A stretch of 21,643 nucleotides of DNA from a virus, in IMG/VR virus record IMGVR_UViG_3300023175_000232, positions 1-21,643 of that record, one strand, 5' to 3'. Below the pieces are notes generated by a model that saw nothing but the letters and a program-made list of their open reading frames with translations, was not told where the DNA came from and ran no database searches. Both the position numbers and the translations under genes were made by a program. How positions within the stretch are numbered: the stretch's first letter is position 1; every line of letters begins with the position of its first letter. Shown here piece after piece: positions 2,486-20,178 of the stretch.

Positions 2486-3000
2486 CTGTTAAATTCCTCT
2501 ACTGTAATGCGCTCGTTTTCGTTTAATAATTTAAAATACAAACCCATTTCAGTGTCCCAATCATATGTGTTTTGAACCCATGCCCTTTTTTCTAGTTTAG
2601 GGTCTTTACGTATGTCTGGCACATAATTATTTAATTCGTTAAACAATAATATTTTGAAATTTATATCTAAGTCCAGTCTGTGTAGGAAAGGTGCTCCGTG
2701 GTACAACATGAACCTTTCGTAGTCATCATACTGTGGATGGTCTATATGATTTTGCTCAAGCCATAACTGATGCCCACTTTCAAATCTTTCTTTAGGGTCT
2801 CGCAACACAAGTATCTGTGTCTTGTCAGCCTGCTGTATCCTTTCCGGCACAATAAAAAACTTGAACCTTTCTTCTAGTGGCTGATTAGTGTCACCATATA
2901 TGTCACTGTAGGAATAACCTAGTATGTGGTGAGTCATTGACTTTGTACCACACCTACCCATTGAATACAGTATTGCTTTATCGTTTTCAACTTTTAACAT
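2473..3000 (-). CDS. Sulfotransferase-like P-loop protein
   Basis: 175 aa. Residues 11-21 (LYSMGRCGTKS) fit the 5'-phosphosulfate-binding loop of PAPS-dependent sulfotransferases, and residues 64-75 (LVLRDPKERFES) fit the 3'-phosphate-binding motif with its conserved Arg and Ser. The spacing of about 50 residues is usual for the family. If active, it would transfer sulfate from PAPS to a sugar, lipid or protein hydroxyl. At 175 aa it is short compared with typical 250-300 aa enzymes, so the acceptor-side helices are reduced. A nucleotide kinase-like P-loop is less likely because no GKT/S motif is present. Its neighbours give no substrate. Confidence 0.6.
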   Translation of the reverse strand: MLKVENDKAILYSMGRCGTKSMTHHILGYSYSDIYGDTNQPLEERFKFFIVPERIQQADKTQILVLRDPKERFESGHQLWLEQNHIDHPQYDDYERFMLYHGAPFLHRLDLDINFKILLFNELNNYVPDIRKDPKLEKRAWVQNTYDWDTEMGLYFKLLNENERITVEEFNRCFS

Positions 3001-3334
3001 TGGGTAACCACTCTATAGGAACAAAGTCAGCTAATGGCTCTTTGTTCAGTCTTATATTTAACATGGAGTTTAGACATTGAGGATCGTGGCGTTGCTGCCA
3101 CTGTAATAGAAACTCCTGCATCTTAGCATGAGACTTCTTCTCAAACTCGGCAATAGTTTCTTTTGCAAGTTCACCTTCATACTCCTTAACGTACTTGGAG
3201 CTACCATAATATTTTTCATAGAGCCTTTGAGGCTTGCCTGAGTATCCTATATAATAATCACCATTAGGAAAATATGTGCAATAAACTCTATGTATCTGTT
3301 TCTCTTTCGGTTTCCGTGTTTTCTTCTTCGCCAT
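2987..3334 (-). CDS. GIY-YIG-like small protein
   Basis: 115 aa from the ATG at 3334, which has GAGG nine bases upstream; an ORF start at 3349 is less well placed. After a basic N-terminus (AKKKTRKPKEKQ) comes VYCTYFPNGDYYIGYSGKP, which matches the two-strand GIY-YIG core (degenerate GIY, intact YIG), then an Arg and KYYGSSKYV as in Seg-type endonucleases, and a later helix with Glu. It could be a free-standing homing nuclease or a repurposed domain; it lacks a clear DNA-binding C-terminal module. It starts just after an exact late-type promoter motif. Confidence 0.5.
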   Translation of the reverse strand: MAKKKTRKPKEKQIHRVYCTYFPNGDYYIGYSGKPQRLYEKYYGSSKYVKEYEGELAKETIAEFEKKSHAKMQEFLLQWQQRHDPQCLNSMLNIRLNKEPLADFVPIEWLPNVKS

Positions 3335-3470
3335 CAAGTACATCCTCATTATCAGATGTACTATTTATATTGTCTTTCTTACCGAAGATACGGTCCCAAT
3401 TTTCGTTGTAAGCCTGTTGATCTATTTTGCGATACCTGGAGCCCTTACCGCCGTGCCATTTGTCTGTCAT
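3288..3470 (-). CDS. Small conserved phage protein (GGKGSRYR)
   Basis: 60 aa. The N-terminal half (WHGGKGSRYRKIDQQAYNEN, then WDRIFGKK) follows a pattern I recognise from small hypothetical proteins of many tailed phages. The C-terminal half is a disordered acidic and Thr-rich tail. The role is unknown. The start ATG overlaps the stop of the zinc-ribbon gene (ATGA), and AGGTGAAG lies upstream. It overlaps the GIY-YIG-like gene by about 47 bases. Confidence 0.6.
   Translation of the reverse strand: MTDKWHGGKGSRYRKIDQQAYNENWDRIFGKKDNINSTSDNEDVLDGEEENTETERETDT
3362..3369 (-). promoter_or_regulatory. Late promoter motif TATAAATA
   Basis: An exact TATAAATA, the T4 late promoter -10 element (NATAAATA in T4-like cyanophages), lies 28 bases before the ATG at 3334. 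The predicted start near 3356 leaves a leader of about 22 bases carrying the GAGG ribosome site. It overlaps coding sequence of the 60 aa gene but is not in a Tyr-Lys-Tyr codon context, unlike other copies in the window. Confidence 0.55.
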
Positions 3471-3625
3471 TGTGCATCTTCACCTAAGTCTAGTCCATTA
3501 TCAATACCTGTTGCACAATATGGGCAAAAGATAGGATCATCAGGCGTGTTATCCTCGTCCCATGTCACCATGTATTCGACACCACAATGCTCGCAATAAT
3601 GTTCTACTGTTGTTTTATTTGACAT
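3467..3625 (-). CDS. Small zinc-ribbon protein
   Basis: 52 aa. Start ATG at 3623-3625 with AGGA eight bases upstream; the stop TGA overlaps the next ATG. Two CxxC knuckles (CEHC near residues 12-15, CPYC near 34-37) separated by about 18 residues form a rubredoxin-like or zinc-ribbon site. The rest is acidic. It overlaps the end of the dCMP deaminase gene by 22 bases, so it is part of the same message. Such tiny zinc ribbons are common in phages; some bind the host transcription machinery, but nothing here shows a partner. Confidence 0.7.
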   Translation of the reverse strand: MSNKTTVEHYCEHCGVEYMVTWDEDNTPDDPIFCPYCATGIDNGLDLGEDAQ

Positions 3626-4044
3626 ACTTCTATTCCTGCTTCTCGTAAAAAGTTATCTCCGCTCCCTTTAGTAGCGTTGTATTCGTTTATGTAATATGCC
3701 TGTGAGATGCCTGCCTGATATATCAGTTTAGCACACTCAATACAAGGAAAGTGCGTGACAAACAATGTAGCACCTTCACTTGAATCTGTTGACTTACACA
3801 ACTTCATTAGCGCATTTGCTTCTGCGTGTAAGACTTCTGGTTTACTTGTGTAGTATATATTAGTTCCTGTATCTACTACATCTTCACACTCGTTAGTCCA
3901 GCCTGAGGGCATACCATTGTAACCTATAGACAGTATCCTGTTATCTTTTACAATGACACACCCTACTTGTAGTTTCTTTGCTGTTGATAGCTTTGCTGTT
4001 TCTTCTGCTATCTTAGCGTAATACTGTAACCATTTTAGGCCCAT
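3604..4044 (-). CDS. dCMP/cytidine deaminase
   Basis: 146 aa. It deaminates dCMP to dUMP, the substrate for ThyX, in the cytoplasm. The zinc-dependent deaminase core is complete: H73-A-E75 supplies the zinc ligand and the catalytic Glu, and P100-C101-I-E-C104 the two cysteine ligands. GYNGMPSG at 41-48 is typical of dCMP deaminases. It is shorter than the T4 enzyme (about 190 aa), so the allosteric region is reduced. It overlaps the nrdB stop by ten bases and sits in the same unit as ribonucleotide reductase and, further upstream, thyX, which supports a role in dTTP supply. Confidence 0.9.
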   Translation of the reverse strand: MGLKWLQYYAKIAEETAKLSTAKKLQVGCVIVKDNRILSIGYNGMPSGWTNECEDVVDTGTNIYYTSKPEVLHAEANALMKLCKSTDSSEGATLFVTHFPCIECAKLIYQAGISQAYYINEYNATKGSGDNFLREAGIEVCQIKQQ

Positions 4045-5015
4045 ACTTCGTCCCAGGTACCTGTTGTCGCACCACGTGCATAGTCTGTTGCTCTGTTCTC
4101 AAAGAAGTTTGTGTGAGTAGGAGCATTTATCATTTCCTCAACCCACAACAAAGGATTCTTCTTAACTTTGAAAATACCTTTGAGGCCCAAAGTAATGAGA
4201 CGCCTATCACAAATATATCTTATATATGTCTTTACATCTTCTGGTGTCAGGCCTTCCATTGGGCCCATAGCAAATGCCAAGTCAATAAACTTGTCCTCAA
4301 GTTCTACCATCTTCTCAGCAATAGTGTATATAGAGGACTTCAGTTTGTCATTCCAAATATCAATGTTCTCCTCTACGTACTCACGGAACAACTTAATCAT
4401 AGACTCAGCGTGCTGTGTCTCGTCAACAATAGACCATGTAACAATCTGTCCCATGCCCTTCATCTTACCATGGCGTGGAAAGTTCAGCAACATAATGAAC
4501 GAGCTGAACAACTGCATACCTTCTGTAAACGCTGAGAAGGCGGCAATGTTTGTTGCTACTGATTCTACAGTGCCATTCTTGTTTGACATATCCATGAAGT
4601 ATTCGTGCTTGTCTTTCATAGCGTCATACTCAAGGAACTCGTTGTACGTAGACTCAGGCATACCTAGTGTCTCAATTAGATGTGAGTATGCTGCTACGTG
4701 CAATGCCTCTCGTGCTGCGAATCCTGCTAACATCATACGGACTTCAGGTTGCTTGAAGTATGGGAGATAGTTATTGACATAGCCACCTGCTACGTCAATG
4801 TCACCCTGTGTGAAAAAACGAAAGATGTTTGTAAGAAATGCTTTCTCTTCCTTTGTAAGTTTGTCCTTCCAGTCTTTTACATCCTCTGCCATCGGAACTT
4901 CCGTGTGTAACCAATGTGACTGTTCGTGCTTCAACCAAGCCTCGTATGCCCAAGCATAGTTAAAAGGTTTAAAGTATGAGCGTTCTTCCGTTAATCGTTT
5001 GTTATTCGGTGACAT
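4035..5015 (-). CDS. nrdB: Ribonucleotide reductase class Ia, beta subunit
   Basis: 326 aa, ferritin-like radical subunit that generates the tyrosyl radical passed to NrdA for reduction of ribonucleoside diphosphates. Metal ligands align with E. coli R2 by spacing: D72, E103, H106, E165, E199 and H202. The radical tyrosine is Y110, at the E-x2-H-x3-Y spacing of Y122. The C-terminus (WDEVWA) is the flexible peptide expected to dock on NrdA. Start ATG has GGAG eight bases upstream and overlaps the gene before. The gene is separated from nrdA by a desaturase and a GNAT-like gene, an uncommon arrangement. Confidence 0.95.
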   Translation of the reverse strand: MSPNNKRLTEERSYFKPFNYAWAYEAWLKHEQSHWLHTEVPMAEDVKDWKDKLTKEEKAFLTNIFRFFTQGDIDVAGGYVNNYLPYFKQPEVRMMLAGFAAREALHVAAYSHLIETLGMPESTYNEFLEYDAMKDKHEYFMDMSNKNGTVESVATNIAAFSAFTEGMQLFSSFIMLLNFPRHGKMKGMGQIVTWSIVDETQHAESMIKLFREYVEENIDIWNDKLKSSIYTIAEKMVELEDKFIDLAFAMGPMEGLTPEDVKTYIRYICDRRLITLGLKGIFKVKKNPLLWVEEMINAPTHTNFFENRATDYARGATTGTWDEVWA

Positions 5016-5656
5016 TCAAGGTTCTCCAAAAATTGTTTTTCGTATGTCCAGTCGAAAAGATAGTAGTATACAAATTGTTCTGCGTTTCTTATTAAGTAAG
5101 TACCCTCACACATTTTTGATTGTCTCATTCTAACGCCAGGTTTTCTATATTGTTTTACAATTAAATTACCTTTACGTTCTTCAGAGTATTCAGGATACCT
5201 ACTAGGGTCATTTAATTTTACCCCTTTGTGTAGGAATGATTCATTATAATGTTCCAAAGTCACTGTGCCGCCCAAGTACCCCTGCTGAATAGCACAATCT
5301 TCTAATACGAAAAAAAGTTCACTTGTGATAGCAGAGGCGGTTAATCCTAATCCTTTACTTCTTAAATAACCAGGCACTTGATATGCTCTAGACTGTACAT
5401 ATATATTAGAATCCCAATCGCTAGGATACCAACCGTGTCCAGTAACAATTCTCCCGCCTTCAGTTTTTATTGCATATCCTGCTCTAGGGCCATCGAATCT
5501 TTTTTCTTTATATAAAAGATATAATAATGTATGTGGTTTATTTTCCCAATCTATCGGGTCCATATTTACAGCATTAGGCCTATCATCCCCTATCGCATTG
5601 CTACAAAACTCTAACATATGTAACAATGGAAAGGAGCTATTCACTATTTGAATCAT
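4991..5656 (-). CDS. Putative GNAT-like protein
   Basis: 221 aa, family not certain. Residues about 85-150 show a pattern like a GNAT acyl-CoA binding core: a strand, then YLRSKGLGLTASAI (resembling the R/Q-x2-G-x-G/A loop), a helix, and later TLEHYNESFLHKGVKL, similar to the Asn-containing helix before the last strand. The C-terminal 70 residues are aromatic-rich (VYYYLFDW). No signal peptide or membrane segment is seen. The start overlaps the desaturase stop (ATGA) and its end overlaps nrdB by 25 bases, so it is co-translated with both. The link to desaturase could mean an acyl-modifying role, but this is inference. Confidence 0.45.
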   Translation of the reverse strand: MIQIVNSSFPLLHMLEFCSNAIGDDRPNAVNMDPIDWENKPHTLLYLLYKEKRFDGPRAGYAIKTEGGRIVTGHGWYPSDWDSNIYVQSRAYQVPGYLRSKGLGLTASAITSELFFVLEDCAIQQGYLGGTVTLEHYNESFLHKGVKLNDPSRYPEYSEERKGNLIVKQYRKPGVRMRQSKMCEGTYLIRNAEQFVYYYLFDWTYEKQFLENLECHRITND

Positions 5657-6348
5657 GTAGTTTTTACCTTATTAATTACCCACCACCCTATGTCTTTTGT
5701 AGGATGGAACATAGGACTGCTCATTTTTTGATGGTGGTTGTCGTGCCAACCTTCACCAAAAGTTATCCAACCAACCCATTCATCATTATGAGGATATGCT
5801 TCTCTATGCGAGTAGGAAAGAATTAATCCTATTATGCCTCTGGACAACCCTGCAGGCAACATCCAAAGATAAATTATAGCAAAAGGTTCAATCAATATAC
5901 CTATAAGTGCAATCCACAAAAACATAAATTTTAAATAGTGTTTATGTTGAATGACTAGCATATTATCTTTAGCTAAGTCTTTCACATAACTCAAATCTAC
6001 ATTCTCAGGATAACCAAAGTGTGCTTTAAAAAAGCCCATCAAGGTTGGAGAGTGTGGATCCTTTTCAGTCTCAATGAATCGGTGATGTTGTCTATGTACC
6101 GAAGCCCATTGTAAAGCAGAACCCTGTAAGCTGATATGTGCAAAGAAAAGACATACTAACTGAAACCATTTATTACACTTAAAAGAATGGTGTGATAGGT
6201 ATCTGTGATAATACACTGTGGTACCCAAACAAGTTATGCCAAAGTACATGAAAGCCGTTAATGCCCACTGCCACCAAGTACCATATAAAATCATAGGTAT
6301 CAGTGACAGATACATAGGAATAGTAATGTATCCAATATTAAATTTCAC
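5653..6348 (-). CDS. Membrane fatty-acid desaturase, three histidine boxes
   Basis: 231 aa. It would insert a double bond in a fatty acyl chain, probably delta-9, using a di-iron centre at the membrane. All three histidine boxes are present: H48-RYLS-H53-H54, H85-RQ-H88-H89, and H202-DN-H205-H206 preceded by GEGW, the typical acyl-CoA/acyl-lipid desaturase order. Hydrophobic segments near 8-45, 62-82 and 140-178 give the usual four-helix layout. It is compact (family usually 250-320 aa). Start is GTG, overlapping the nrdA stop as TAGTG, with GAGG just upstream. It is AT-rich compared with nrdA. The substrate (host acyl lipid) is inferred. Confidence 0.88.
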   Translation of the reverse strand: MKFNIGYITIPMYLSLIPMILYGTWWQWALTAFMYFGITCLGTTVYYHRYLSHHSFKCNKWFQLVCLFFAHISLQGSALQWASVHRQHHRFIETEKDPHSPTLMGFFKAHFGYPENVDLSYVKDLAKDNMLVIQHKHYLKFMFLWIALIGILIEPFAIIYLWMLPAGLSRGIIGLILSYSHREAYPHNDEWVGWITFGEGWHDNHHQKMSSPMFHPTKDIGWWVINKVKTT

Positions 6349-8150
6349 TATCCCTCACACGCTAAGCATTCACTGCTCTCAACAAGTGCTGTCATATCAG
6401 CTTCTTTGATAATCTCACGTTCAATCCTACGTGATACTTTATCCGCCTTACCTACTTTTTCTGAGCGACAGTAGTACAGTGTCTTGAGTCCTGACTTCCA
6501 TGCCAAGAAGTGTACAAGGTGTAGATACTTTTTGTTTACGTCTGGGCGGAAGAATAGATTGAGTGACTGTGCCTGGTCGATAAACTCCTGACGCTTTGAG
6601 GCGTGGTCGATAATCCAACGCTGATCTATCTCCATAGCAGTTTTAAAAACATTCTTTTCTTCTTCTGACAGGAATCTGAGTTGCTGTACGGATCCGTCAT
6701 TTGAGATTATTGAAGACCAGATTTCGTCTTCTGTCTGTTTTGTTTCCCCAGCTTCAATCTTACTTTGAATAAGTCCCACCAGATGCTTATTTTTATTGAG
6801 ATAAGCTCCGGAGAGAGTGTCTTGCCTATATGCGTTTGCCCTATACGGTTCAATACTAGGCGAAGTGTTACCCATAATGATAGAAGAAGAAGCGTTGGGA
6901 GCGATAGCCATAACATGACTAAACCTTCTTCCTGTGCCAACTGCATCAGGTGCCTCTCCTCGTTCTGTACCCAACTCCATATTTGCTTCATCAAGTTTGC
7001 CTCTAATATGTCTAAACATTCTCATGTTAGCGCTAGTAGCCTGCCAACTTTCCCATTCTATCATATTTTTCTGTAGATAGGCATGGAAGCCTAGTGCGCC
7101 AATACCAATACTCCGTTCACGCATTGCTGAAAACTTAGCGCGTGATACTGCATCAGGAGCTTTATCAATAAAAAACTGTAATACGTTGTCGAGCATTTCT
7201 GCCATGTCACGGAGGAACATTGTGTTCTTACTCCATGAGTCATAGTATTCTAAGTTCACTGAGGACAAACAACAAACTGCTGTCCTGTCCTTGTCTGTAG
7301 GCAAAATGATTTCACTGCAAAGGTTGGACTGGTGTATTTTTAGGCCCAAGTCTTTCTGCCATTGTGGAAGATGATTGTTGCTTGTATCAATAAAGTGTAT
7401 GTAAGGTTCACCTGTCTCCATACGTAGTTCAAGTATCTTCTGCCACAGATACTTAGCTGAGATAGTGTCACGTATCTCACCTGTGTGTGGATCAGTGAGG
7501 TTCCAACCATCATCAGCATCAGGGTCTGCCATGCAGCGCTCAACAAGTTCCATAAACCTATCGTTAATATTGATACCGTGATGTAAGTTCAGGCAACGGA
7601 CATTCTGGTCGCCTGTAGGTTTTCTCATTTCTAAAAACTGAACAACATCTGGATGGCTAATGTCAAGGTAAGTAGCATAAGACCCACGTCTAGTACGACC
7701 CTGGCGATAAGCGAGGCAACTGGAATCATAAGTCTTAAGATGAGGCATGACACCAGTAGACTTATCATCGGATGCCCTGATTCCGAACCCAATACCAACA
7801 CCACCGCCAAGCATAGATAACCAATTAGTTTCACTGAGATTCTCCACCAGCCCTTCGGCTGTATCATTAATATAGTTTAAGAAACAAGAAATGGGCATAC
7901 CCTTCTTGGAACGACCATAAGACAAAATAGGAGTAGAGTATGACAACCAATGCCTGCTTGCATAGTCATACAATCTCTGTGCGTGTTCAAGGTTACTTGC
8001 AAACTGTAAGCTAACAAAAGCAAAACGCTCTTGAGGAGATTCTTCCTCCTCTCTCATGTAGCTTTCTTTCAGTCTTTGAATACCTAACTTGTCAAATAGT
8101 TCGTCCCGGGACAGGTCAATTTGAATACCCAAATAATCTCTCTTAGCCAT
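6348..8150 (-). CDS. nrdA: Ribonucleotide reductase class Ia, alpha subunit
   Basis: 600 aa catalytic subunit. Active-site residues align with E. coli NrdA: C89 and C293 (redox pair 225/462), N276-L-C278-S-E280 (N437, thiyl C439, E441), and Y559-Y560 (Y730/Y731) for radical transfer. The C-terminal C595-x2-C598 pair re-reduces the active site. It lacks the roughly 90-residue N-terminal ATP-cone, so it probably is not shut off by dATP through that domain, which suits a phage that needs a large dNTP pool. The ribosome site is weak (GGAG eleven bases upstream). The stop TAG overlaps the desaturase GTG start. Confidence 0.95.
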   Translation of the reverse strand: MAKRDYLGIQIDLSRDELFDKLGIQRLKESYMREEEESPQERFAFVSLQFASNLEHAQRLYDYASRHWLSYSTPILSYGRSKKGMPISCFLNYINDTAEGLVENLSETNWLSMLGGGVGIGFGIRASDDKSTGVMPHLKTYDSSCLAYRQGRTRRGSYATYLDISHPDVVQFLEMRKPTGDQNVRCLNLHHGININDRFMELVERCMADPDADDGWNLTDPHTGEIRDTISAKYLWQKILELRMETGEPYIHFIDTSNNHLPQWQKDLGLKIHQSNLCSEIILPTDKDRTAVCCLSSVNLEYYDSWSKNTMFLRDMAEMLDNVLQFFIDKAPDAVSRAKFSAMRERSIGIGALGFHAYLQKNMIEWESWQATSANMRMFRHIRGKLDEANMELGTERGEAPDAVGTGRRFSHVMAIAPNASSSIIMGNTSPSIEPYRANAYRQDTLSGAYLNKNKHLVGLIQSKIEAGETKQTEDEIWSSIISNDGSVQQLRFLSEEEKNVFKTAMEIDQRWIIDHASKRQEFIDQAQSLNLFFRPDVNKKYLHLVHFLAWKSGLKTLYYCRSEKVGKADKVSRRIEREIIKEADMTALVESSECLACEG

Positions 8151-8154
8151 CTAC

Positions 8155-9126
8155 TTATTTACTCCCACAGAAAAAATCGCAGGCTTTTATTCTGTCTTGT
8201 TTATTGTTCCATTTATTGCTGAAATCGTTAAACCATTCTATACATTCAGATAAAGTATGCTCGAGTGCATTATACTTATACATCATGTTACTTAGCTGCT
8301 CGTTCACAGCGTTCAACCCATTGTTGTATGATCTAAAAGTTTTAGGATAAAATCCTGTCCAACAACAAGGACTCACATCACCATTAGCTGCTACGTATAT
8401 ACTTTTAGCTAGAACAGAGTAACAAGCAATCTTTGTCATATCTGTTGTGTCATACTCATAATTTTTTTGTAGTTCATTTAAAGAAGTAGGGCCACTGTAA
8501 TCACCTATTATTCTAACTAGATCGCCTTTATTATCAAACACAGGACCATTATCCCTACCTTCTTCTACTATAGAAAACATAAAAAAATTCATGTCCTTGC
8601 TTATCTTTTTAGCATTTTCTATCTGATGTTCATTGTGTTTAAACTTTATCATTTTCCACATGGCTATACCACCAGCATCAATAAAAGTTTTAGCATTTTT
8701 TAAAATAACATCATACCTAGTGTTTTGTCTATATATTGAATGGGTGTCTGACAAACCATCTATAGCAAAATTAATTTTTACTTTCAATTTAGCTAGTTCA
8801 GTCCACCAATCACTGTTTCTAGCAGAACCATTTGTATTCAATGTTATATTCAATTTTTCGTTTGAATTCCTGAAATATTCTACAATAGAAATTGTTTCAG
8901 GGTTCATAACGGCATCACCGTAGTTTCCGTTAATGTTGATAGTGTCTAACTGCTTCAAAAATTCTGTTGTAAAAATTTTCCTAGCTTGATCGAGTGTCAT
9001 ATTAGTTTCAGGATAACCGTTGTTTTCTGTATACCCATAACTATTTCTAGGACACAAAGGACACACCGCATTACAAAGTGTTGTTATCTCTAGGTGTACA
9101 TTTTTTATTTCATTATAAGGTGTCAC
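8155..9126 (-). CDS. Radical SAM enzyme with SPASM/Twitch-like C-terminus
   Basis: 323 aa. The CxxxCxxC motif at C18, C22, C25 binds the SAM-cleaving 4Fe-4S cluster; INGNYGDAVMNP and TLNTNGS are the GGE-like and beta-strand motifs of the barrel. The C-terminus holds extra cysteines (CYSVLA near 237, SPCCW near 253, SECIEW near 293, ACDFFCGSK at the end), as in SPASM or Twitch domains with auxiliary clusters. Such enzymes often modify peptides; the substrate is not visible and no small precursor peptide lies adjacent. Start is GTG, inside the end of thyX. The gene is very AT-rich, unlike thyX and nrdA on both sides. Confidence 0.88.
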   Translation of the reverse strand: MTPYNEIKNVHLEITTLCNAVCPLCPRNSYGYTENNGYPETNMTLDQARKIFTTEFLKQLDTININGNYGDAVMNPETISIVEYFRNSNEKLNITLNTNGSARNSDWWTELAKLKVKINFAIDGLSDTHSIYRQNTRYDVILKNAKTFIDAGGIAMWKMIKFKHNEHQIENAKKISKDMNFFMFSIVEEGRDNGPVFDNKGDLVRIIGDYSGPTSLNELQKNYEYDTTDMTKIACYSVLAKSIYVAANGDVSPCCWTGFYPKTFRSYNNGLNAVNEQLSNMMYKYNALEHTLSECIEWFNDFSNKWNNKQDRIKACDFFCGSK

Positions 9127-9766
9127 AGGCTTCTGCTACATCTGGAAAATGGTGTGAAATAACTTCCCAACATTCTCTAGCAATGTCCATATGTTCTTTT
9201 TGTGTACCGTTTGCCATTCTCAACTGACAATAGTGTACCCAACTTCTTAGAGTGCCTGACATATATAGTGTTGTTTCAGTATTACCCTCAGGCAAAACAG
9301 CTCGTGCTTGCTCTTTAGCAATACCTTTTTCTAAGGCCCATTGATATACTTCCCTGGCCTTGTTCACAACCTCATGTTGCTTCATGTTCCAATCTTCTTG
9401 TAGATACTTATCATCAGTCTCTACAGAGTTCTGCCTATTTTTAGGGTCTTGTAAACGTGCCTCTCTGTCTACATAGTTCTCTGATACAGCGTATCGCTGA
9501 CTAAACTCCTGAAAACTAAAGCTACGGTGCCTTATAATCTGTCTACTAATGTCACGGGTAGTCTTTATCTCCATTGTTACAGAAACCATTTCAAATGGGC
9601 TCCAATGGGCATTTTTTATTAGATATTTTAGCAGTTTAGGTGCTGTATCAGCATTATTTTGATTCCCTGGGTTACTTACACGAGCGGCATAAGCAATAAG
9701 TTCGTTAGCGCTATGACAGCCTGTTACTGCTGAGGGCTGAGTCATTCCTACGAGCGATACATTCAT
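9113..9766 (-). CDS. thyX: FAD-dependent thymidylate synthase ThyX
   Basis: 217 aa from the ATG at 9766. It methylates dUMP to dTMP with methylenetetrahydrofolate, NADPH and FAD. The signature RHRSFSFQEFSQR is intact at residues 79-91, and the C-terminal part carries RAVLPEG and LRSWVHYCQLR, as in the family. I prefer this start because GGAG lies nine bases upstream and the ATG overlaps the primase stop as TAATG; an ATG five codons earlier (9781) has no ribosome site. It has its own consensus sigma-70 promoter inside the primase gene, so it can be made early and independently. The product of dCMP deaminase feeds it. Confidence 0.95.
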   Translation of the reverse strand: MNVSLVGMTQPSAVTGCHSANELIAYAARVSNPGNQNNADTAPKLLKYLIKNAHWSPFEMVSVTMEIKTTRDISRQIIRHRSFSFQEFSQRYAVSENYVDREARLQDPKNRQNSVETDDKYLQEDWNMKQHEVVNKAREVYQWALEKGIAKEQARAVLPEGNTETTLYMSGTLRSWVHYCQLRMANGTQKEHMDIARECWEVISHHFPDVAEACDTL

Positions 9767-10791
9767 TAACACTTTCTCCATTTTGTAAATTCGAGTCTTG
9801 CTTCAAGGCCTTGATAGGTATTACTACTTATAATATAATGTATTTTATCCCTTGTCAAGCCTGTCATTATCATTTCGTTCACATCTTTTTCGTACACATA
9901 CTCAGGCCATATAACTACCCTTTCACCTGCATCTATTTGATTCTCAATCAGTTTACATACCTCATAGTTACGTGGCTGATTGTCAAATACCATTGTAAAG
10001 TGTGTCAGTTTTAGTTTGTCTACTTTACCGAATGCTGTGCCTACACAGGCAATAGCGTTGTCAATAAACAAACTGTCAATGGGTCCTTCTACTACATACA
10101 CTTCCTTGTCAGTGTCCACATTGTCAAGTCCAAACACCTGTAGATCATTCTCTTTTATCTTCAACTGAATGTATCTAAGTTTCTCACCCCTCATGCCCCT
10201 GAGTGTCAGGCCTGATAGCTGACCATCAGGTGTGATACAAGGCAATGCTAAGCGGGGTTGTTTTATATTTAGTGCCTGAGTGTATTTGGTATTCAACTGT
10301 GACAATGTGCGTATATCGTCAACATAATATAGCCTGTGATATTGATCCTCAGGTATCTTTCTGCTTTGACAATATCTTACTGCTTCATGGTCAGAAGGCA
10401 GTGTGTCAAGCCTGTCCATGAGGCTGTCAATCAAGCGTGAGGGTTTGTCAAAGTCAGGCGTGAAGTCAAAGGCATACTCAGGGTTAGGTTCCTTCTTAGG
10501 TTCAGGCTTTTCATCTTTTTTGACAAACTTTTCTAACACATATTCCTTGTATAGTAAGTGGTCAACCTGTTCTAAGAAGTTAGCAATGGTTGTGCCATAC
10601 TGACAGTTATGACAGCGATAAAACATATCGTTATCTTTACGGTAAAAGTAACCTCTGGCCTTATTTTTCTTGCGTTCGGAGTCACCACAGACAGGACATC
10701 TGCAATTAAAGAGGTAGTCGTCCTTCTTCTGGAACCTGTCCAGTTTGACGGAGACCATGTTGATAAATTTTAGATCAATAAAAAGTGACAT
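9766..10791 (-). CDS. DNA primase, T4 gp61-like
   Basis: 341 aa, the size of T4 gp61. It makes RNA primers for lagging-strand synthesis with the replicative helicase. The N-terminal zinc site is C32-P-V-C35 and C60-H-N-C63, in the RCPVCGDS and YRCHNC context known from T4-like primases. KNKARGYFYRK between them is also typical. The TOPRIM core shows VYVVEGPIDS (E235), then VFDNQ (D270) and a later D303. The ATG at 10791 fits the family's N-terminus (IDLKFIN). No ribosome site is seen, and the predicted transcript starts almost at the ATG. It opens the replication/nucleotide block. Confidence 0.92.
   Translation of the reverse strand: MSLFIDLKFINMVSVKLDRFQKKDDYLFNCRCPVCGDSERKKNKARGYFYRKDNDMFYRCHNCQYGTTIANFLEQVDHLLYKEYVLEKFVKKDEKPEPKKEPNPEYAFDFTPDFDKPSRLIDSLMDRLDTLPSDHEAVRYCQSRKIPEDQYHRLYYVDDIRTLSQLNTKYTQALNIKQPRLALPCITPDGQLSGLTLRGMRGEKLRYIQLKIKENDLQVFGLDNVDTDKEVYVVEGPIDSLFIDNAIACVGTAFGKVDKLKLTHFTMVFDNQPRNYEVCKLIENQIDAGERVVIWPEYVYEKDVNEMIMTGLTRDKIHYIISSNTYQGLEARLEFTKWRKC
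9830..9858 (-). promoter_or_regulatory. Sigma-70 promoter upstream of thyX
   Basis: TTGACA at 9853-9858, a 17-base spacer, then TATTAT at 9830-9835 (five of six to the -10 consensus) on the minus strand. It lies within the 3' end of the primase gene. Predicted start near 9823 leaves a leader of about 57 bases before the thyX ATG at 9766. Confidence 0.7.
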
Positions 10792-19560: not shown

Positions 19561-20178
19561 TTAACTCCTAAAAATCCTATTAATATAACATCCGTCTCTT
19601 TTAACTTTTGAATAAGGATTATCCACTCTAATAAATCCCTTACTCTCTATAAAGTCCTGATACTTATCACTATTTTCTATAGTCATGGTAAGTATTTCAT
19701 ATTTGTCAAAGGGAAATACCTTTAAAACTTCGTATTCAGACCCTTCTATATCTAAACCTAAATAATCAATAACCTTAGGTGCGTTGTATTTGTCTAATAA
19801 TGTTTCTAATGTAATACTTTTTACTTTTTGTAGAGTTGCCACATCAGACAGATCAAAGTATTCTAAACCAGAAACTGCTGACATATAAGAAAGGTCAACA
19901 AGTCCATTTTCTGTATTTTTAAAAGTTCCCTGAGGGACACTTAAAAAGTCTACTTCGCCATCATGTGAAAACAATGCTGCATTTTCTACATTTTTTCTAT
20001 CTAGCATATCACACATATCTTTATTAGGTGATACACAAATACCATTCCAATCTAATTCTTTCTCAAGTTTTTTTGCTGAGCTATTAAATACAGTAGCGCC
20101 GCCTTCAACAAAATAACCGTTCTTTTTATAATTAAAAAATTCAGCAACCCATCTATCGTTGCCTTCAGACTGAATCAT
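19561..20178 (-). CDS. FkbM-like methyltransferase
   Basis: 205 aa. SAM-dependent FkbM-type O-methyltransferases act mainly on sugars. Seen here: GYFVEGGA at 21-28 (usual form DIGA), then KLEKELDWNGICVSPN at 37-52 (usual ...GICIEPN), NAAL at 66-69, and a central IDYLGLDIEGSEYEVLKVF. The order is right, but the acidic residue of the EPN motif is Ser, so SAM binding or activity may be altered. Start overlaps the lysozyme stop (ATGA). It is AT-rich, unlike its neighbours. Target not visible; host surface glycan or virion sugar are possibilities. Confidence 0.75.
   Translation of the reverse strand: MIQSEGNDRWVAEFFNYKKNGYFVEGGATVFNSSAKKLEKELDWNGICVSPNKDMCDMLDRKNVENAALFSHDGEVDFLSVPQGTFKNTENGLVDLSYMSAVSGLEYFDLSDVATLQKVKSITLETLLDKYNAPKVIDYLGLDIEGSEYEVLKVFPFDKYEILTMTIENSDKYQDFIESKGFIRVDNPYSKVKRDGCYINRIFRS

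Follow-up and report, generated by a model that had tools for sequence, protein, structure and literature searches.

The nrdA–nrdB gap of a marine T4-like phage group is a swappable cargo slot that can hold a desaturase and a predicted GNAT-fold partner

RESULTS

A desaturase and X221 separate nrdA from nrdB

The window analyzed here is the whole of a 21,643-base IMG/VR virus record (IMGVR_UViG_3300023175_000232), part of the genome of a T4-like marine phage; nearly all genes of the window lie on the minus strand. Along that strand, a gp61-like primase is followed by thyX, a radical SAM gene, nrdA, a desaturase, a protein designated X221, nrdB, and a dCMP deaminase:

9766..10791, minus strand: gp61-like DNA primase (PHROG 47), a syntenic anchor common to cyanophages, Mosig, and Melnitz
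9113..9781, minus strand: thyX, flavin-dependent thymidylate synthase (PF02511)
8155..9126, minus strand: radical SAM/SPASM-like gene between thyX and nrdA (PF04055)
6348..8150, minus strand: nrdA, class I ribonucleotide reductase (RNR) large subunit, 600 aa, left border of the slot (NF006577, PF02867)
5653..6348, minus strand: membrane fatty-acid desaturase (FAD), stearoyl-CoA desaturase (SCD)-like, 231 aa, GTG start (PF00487, alignments, AlphaFold2)
4991..5656, minus strand: X221, predicted GNAT-fold protein, 221 aa, putative acyltransferase partner of the desaturase (AlphaFold2 model)
4035..5015, minus strand: nrdB, class I RNR small subunit, 326 aa, right border of the slot (NF007186)
3604..4044, minus strand: dCMP deaminase, the next gene in the same packed run (PF00383, PHROG 174)

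Both reductase subunits exceeded their NCBIfam equivalog cut-offs, NrdA with 747.8 bits against 620 (NF006577) and NrdB with 451.4 bits against 237 (NF007186); the C-terminus of NrdA reads CLACEG. The order nrdA–desaturase–221-aa protein–nrdB, as given by the first-pass annotation, is real: it follows from the minus-strand open reading frames and recurs in two more IMG/VR contigs, L001 (protein identity to the window of 99% for the desaturase and 100% for X221) and L002 (100%). Judged by the primase, the nearest annotated relatives are Kyanoviridae phages, among which S-SM1 and DSL-LC03 share the order primase–nrdA–nrdB. In Melnitz (L011), one short open reading frame lies between nrdA and nrdB. 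The radical SAM gene between thyX and nrdA is missing from L016–L018, which makes this a second variable position.

The overlaps of 1 to 25 bases described earlier were confirmed, measuring 1 base between nrdA and the desaturase, 4 between the desaturase and X221, and 25 between X221 and nrdB, with a further 10 between nrdB and the dCMP deaminase. Because overlapping or touching genes are found at most of the window's 31 junctions, such tight packing is nothing special for these four genes, and the overlaps were rejected as a sign of special coupling. No terminator-like sites were found on the minus strand inside the packed gene run. The desaturase is indeed AT-rich relative to nrdA and nrdB (36.2% GC versus 42–43%), as had been remarked, but it ranks only sixth lowest in GC among the 32 window genes, 0.9 SD below the window mean, and is therefore no composition outlier; as evidence of insertion, base composition is too weak.

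Predicted folds of the two cargo proteins

The desaturase matches PF00487 with 38.8 bits (cut-off 29.7), and its three histidine boxes (H48xxxxH53, H85xxHH89, and H202xxHH206) are invariant in 17 viral relatives, as are H99 and H181. Its AlphaFold2 model (pLDDT 93.3) superimposes on human SCD over 228 of 231 residues (Z 23.2, rmsd 2.6, 23% identity). The complete three-histidine-box desaturase of the first-pass annotation is thus upheld, and the model gives this membrane enzyme a stearoyl-CoA-desaturase fold. Within the phage collection, only three records matched the window desaturase.

X221 matched no family in Pfam (up to E 1), PHROG, or NCBIfam, GNAT families included, and sequence-profile comparison with the PDB returned nothing worth reporting. 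No match was found in the phage collection, nor in 84,980 prokaryote genomes by a pattern scan, which needs conserved short peptides and which distant relatives may escape. Its AlphaFold2 model (pLDDT 90.3, pTM 0.84), by contrast, aligned to ordinary GNAT structures with Z up to 12.0 over approximately 140 residues. The GNAT likeness suspected at first reading is thereby supported by structure prediction, and X221 is predicted to represent a previously unnamed GNAT-fold family. In a Foldseek search, the lowest E-values (~1e-7) belonged to the acyl-homoserine lactone synthase BjaI (5w8g), at a TM of only ~0.43, so the ranking is no strong sign of LuxI-like chemistry. The autoinducer synthase profile PF00765 (Autoind_synth) was not among the Pfam hits up to E 1; the likeness lies at fold level only. 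A pyrophosphate-loop motif, [QR]xxGx[GA], occurs in X221 of the window (RSKGLG, residue 99) and of L105 (QVKGLG) but is missing from X221 of L016, L017, L023, and L102, and hence is not conserved in the family. Residues that are conserved include W37, K40, H42, E51, K52, and R53. The GNAT fold alone leaves the acyl donor of X221 unspecified, and we treat its acyltransferase role and substrate as putative.

A promiscuous cargo slot between nrdA and nrdB

A NrdA search gave 80 related loci, and X221 searches added further ones. We compared 91 loci that had a placed NrdB and a NrdA of at least 60% identity: in 26 the nrdA–nrdB gap was empty, with no more than 100 bases, and in 65 it was filled; these loci were gathered by similarity rather than at random, and the frequencies are not population estimates. 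The cargo fell into 28 blastp clusters of open reading frames, some of them only ORF calls. Thioredoxin-family, 2OG-Fe(II)-oxygenase-like, QueC-like, nitroreductase-like, and radical SAM proteins were represented, along with a GlcNAc transferase, an epimerase, endonuclease V, desaturases, and X221. On a quick tree of NrdA plus NrdB (69 distinct rows), slot content changes at least 26 times; the state empty or filled changes at least 9 times, X221 at least 5 times, and the desaturase at least 4 times, all of these counts being minima without direction. Even relatives with approximately 95% identical NrdA carry a desaturase with X221, a different desaturase with X221, X221 alone, or a radical SAM gene with two QueC-like genes. 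The nrdA–nrdB gap in this marine T4-like phage group is a promiscuous, swappable cargo slot.

Near-identical loci capture the movement of the cassette. L022 and L023 share 98.3% DNA identity in nrdA, 98.4% in the left cargo gene, and 95.9% in nrdB, and they are separated by exactly the desaturase and X221, which are present in L023 and absent from L022; the two loci differ from the left gene's stop codon up to the start of nrdB. Insertion into an existing operon, previously argued from AT content, is much better evidenced by this comparison than by base composition. L110 has the same left border as L023, plus an additional epimerase. Between the window and L001, the desaturase (98.3% DNA identity) and X221 (98.9%) are more alike than nrdA (only 91.7%), which hints at separate recombination; these identities suggest that the desaturase–X221 cassette may have recombined independently of nrdA.

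X221 recurs beside different desaturases

A desaturase adjoins X221 in the nrd slot of the window, L001, and L002, of L016, and of L023 and L110. The pair also occurs outside the slot, between an AAA gene and the sliding clamp in L102 and L104, and in L125 in the order glycosyltransferase–Coq4-like–X221–desaturase–radical SAM. In five loci (L167, L169, L172, L176, and L178), a GT2-like domain is followed in the same protein by an X221 domain (HMM E 5e-21), and a desaturase comes next with a 4-base overlap. By eye, this GT2-like domain resembles the GT2 proteins of L003–L007; Pfam gave no hit. In L103, the neighbor of X221 is a ketoacyl synthase. As supporting context only, the putatively viral record L223, in which searches for gp23, tail sheath, and terminase (PF03237) as viral markers were negative, clusters an X221 member with four desaturases, a fatty-acid hydroxylase, a phosphopantetheine-binding carrier protein, radical SAM/B12 proteins, and a Rieske protein.

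A single clade of nrd-slot desaturases was rejected (AU p 3.5e-7), strongly so even though some rows of the desaturase tree are long-branched and their exact positions uncertain. The nrd-slot X221 proteins, in contrast, group together (93/96). X221 has thus acquired different desaturase partners on more than one occasion.

The two genes are also carried separately in many viral contigs: X221 lacks an adjoining desaturase in L003–L006, L017/L018/L095, L027/L031, and L111–L122, and 74 of 80 viral desaturase loci have no X221 in the flanks examined. Together with a slot that gathers many genes, this would fit two unrelated pieces of cargo that met by chance. We consider such a meeting unlikely, because the adjacency recurs with several desaturase lineages and in several genomic settings, L022 and L023 differ by both genes at once, and X221 lies directly downstream of the nrd-slot desaturase in 6 of 7 loci.

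X221 could also be a GNAT that modifies nucleotides or DNA, Mom-like in principle, with the desaturase incidental. Its setting among nucleotide-metabolism genes (thyX, nrdAB, and dCMP deaminase) is consistent with such a role, as are the QueC-like proteins that frequently adjoin it; given that these, radical SAM and Coq4-like proteins, and glycosyltransferases are all recurrent neighbors, a lipid role is not the sole reading. Nevertheless, QueC-like cargo also occupies the slot where X221 is absent. In addition, X221 recurs next to desaturases of separate lineages, stands beside a ketoacyl synthase and in a carrier-protein cluster, and is joined to a GT2-like domain in fusions that immediately precede a desaturase, which leaves this role similarly improbable.

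DISCUSSION

The first-pass annotation took nrdA and nrdB to be normally adjacent. This premise does not hold in the related phages, in which the gap is mostly filled, and their separation has already been published: phage nrdA and nrdB have been described as interspersed with genes of unknown function (PMC3653736), and the homing endonuclease gene mobE lies in the nrdA–nrdB gap of T4 and its relatives, where it is expressed from upstream promoters (PMC2988022). The present locus resembles the former in that other genes can part nrdA from nrdB, and differs in that here the cargo was identified, a tree gave counts of its turnover, and an empty/filled pair was demonstrated. With mobE it shares insertion into the nrdA–nrdB gap of a T4-like phage. 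Unlike mobE, the window cargo is metabolic and has no recognizable endonuclease, neither the desaturase nor X221 matching an HNH or GIY-YIG endonuclease in Pfam or PHROG, and the slot accepts many gene families. There is strong evidence that the cargo slot is genuine and that the desaturase and X221 form a recurrent cassette within it.

It had further been proposed that dNTP synthesis is coupled to lipid modification, the desaturase residing in the RNR operon to use a common electron donor or iron supply or to raise dNTP and membrane production jointly. The RNR genes and the desaturase do share a packed operon, and the slot of other loci frequently holds a thioredoxin-family gene, thioredoxins being a known class of RNR reductant. 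The slot contents are diverse, however, and often have nothing to do with iron or redox; desaturase–X221 pairs occur away from nrd genes (L102/L104, L125, and L169), and the close relatives L017, L018, and L022 manage without a desaturase. Functional coupling is accordingly very unlikely and not supported, and we saw no sign that dNTP synthesis is specially linked to lipids. An assembly artefact joining unrelated phage pieces, conceivable for a metagenomic contig of unusual gene order, is ruled out by the repetition of this order in the two further contigs that a search of related genomes recovered, with variant forms in still other loci.

On the likeliest account, the nrd operon has received a module of acyltransferase and desaturase. 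We regard it as probable that a swappable nrd slot here holds a two-gene desaturase–X221 cassette that serves lipid modification and is not coupled to RNR. Recombination between the conserved flanking genes would swap the contents of the slot, which in the window consist of an SCD-type membrane desaturase and the predicted GNAT-fold X221. The cassette is probably expressed by riding the nrd transcript, with no biochemical coupling to ribonucleotide reduction. The desaturase would most likely add a double bond to a host fatty-acyl chain, borne on CoA, ACP, or a lipid ester; X221 may pass this acyl group, or a related one, on to an acceptor amine or hydroxyl of a membrane lipid or glycolipid, with a possible effect on infection. 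More tentatively, X221 might be the founder of a phage-specific family of GNAT-fold acyltransferases within a mobile module for making lipids or acyl metabolites, which phages would introduce into infected cells and commonly house in the nrd slot; its other members would be exchangeable desaturases, joined in some cases by glycosyltransferases, ketoacyl synthases, or carrier proteins. We find this extension possible but less likely than the cassette reading itself.

Viral fatty-acid desaturases (vFADs) were reportedly described in cyanophages by Roitman et al. in 2018 (ISME J 12:343). PMC11480375 cites that work on viral desaturases, and PMC7300359 links vFADs of Arctic viruses to the SCD structure 4ZYO, which is also the best match of the window desaturase. 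Cyanophage and Arctic vFADs are, like the window protein, phage-borne membrane desaturases with histidine boxes; in contrast to the present case, the passages of PMC7300359 consulted describe no GNAT-fold partner or nrdA–nrdB placement. The Pelagibacter phage Mosig EXVC030M (Kyanoviridae; L010) encodes a desaturase 29% identical to that of the window, but in a separate gene cluster and with no X221 recognized; its NrdA is 25% identical. The nrdA–nrdB gap of Mosig contains two open reading frames of 214 and 51 aa. The former was rejected as a relative of X221; it clusters with a 210-aa cargo protein of L022 and L023 that matches PHROG 3704, labeled "ferredoxin". As for the GNAT superfamily, which includes LuxI-type synthases such as BjaI, the X221 model shares its fold, whereas X221 showed no sequence similarity to it in our searches and differs in the absence of a PF00765 match and of a family-wide pyrophosphate-loop motif.

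Genes between phage nrdA and nrdB in general, mobE at that site, and viral desaturases are therefore already published. Among the open-licence papers searched, we found none that describes X221 or its association with desaturases, none that treats the nrd gap as a counted cargo slot, and none on phage desaturases accompanied by acyltransferases or carrier proteins. Should our reading be correct, a core operon of these phages would also serve for the exchange of metabolic cargo, and this would help explain the trade in auxiliary genes among marine phages. X221 is the most interesting residue of this analysis: as a recurrent partner of desaturases, it may offer a concrete handle on phage effects on host lipids beyond simple desaturation.

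Gene content around nrdA and nrdB

The radical SAM gene lying between thyX and nrdA in the window (8155-9126, minus strand) is missing from the close relatives L016-L018 and is replaced or absent in other relatives. On gene order, this interval is a second variable position, adjoining the nrdA-nrdB slot. Within the slot itself, ORFs related to PHROG 3704 were found as cargo in Mosig (Pelagibacter phage EXVC030M, L010), the near-identical pair L022 and L023, and three further loci (L084, L087 and L110).

PHROG 3704-related ORFs
L022: 7812-8444
L023: 7812-8444
L010: 8210-8854

PHROG 3704 is labelled 'ferredoxin', yet no obvious iron-sulphur cysteine motif was seen in the L022 member on inspection by eye.

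Two very different NrdA lineages occupy one position behind the gp61-like primase (window 6348-10791 versus L010, L012 and L013), as if the ribonucleotide reductase had been displaced in place. NrdA is approximately 600 aa long in the window and its relatives and approximately 770 aa in Mosig and cyanophages, and the two types share only 24-25% identity.

Elsewhere in the window, a short protein weakly matching PHROG 314 (homing endonuclease; 2987-3349) is kept at 57-96% identity across many relatives, always downstream of the gene for dCMP deaminase. An FkbM-type methyltransferase gene (19561-20178), whose GC content of 31.2% is the second lowest in the window, adjoins a lysozyme gene.

Genomic contexts of X221

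The GNAT-fold family X221 also occurs in a conserved cluster with a GT2-like glycosyltransferase, a Coq4-like protein and a radical SAM protein (L003:6624-10791, L004, L006, L124 and L125), a putative biosynthetic set. Several of these clusters include a QueC-like protein, the L003 radical SAM protein has a B12-binding-like match, and a gp23 gene of the T4 type is present in the record for L004. In L223 (1104-16370), a putatively viral record from a viral collection, genes for five desaturases accompany those for a carrier protein and for ATP-grasp, Rieske and radical SAM/B12 proteins. Approximately 15 kb holds the majority of this gene set, which resembles a natural-product cluster.
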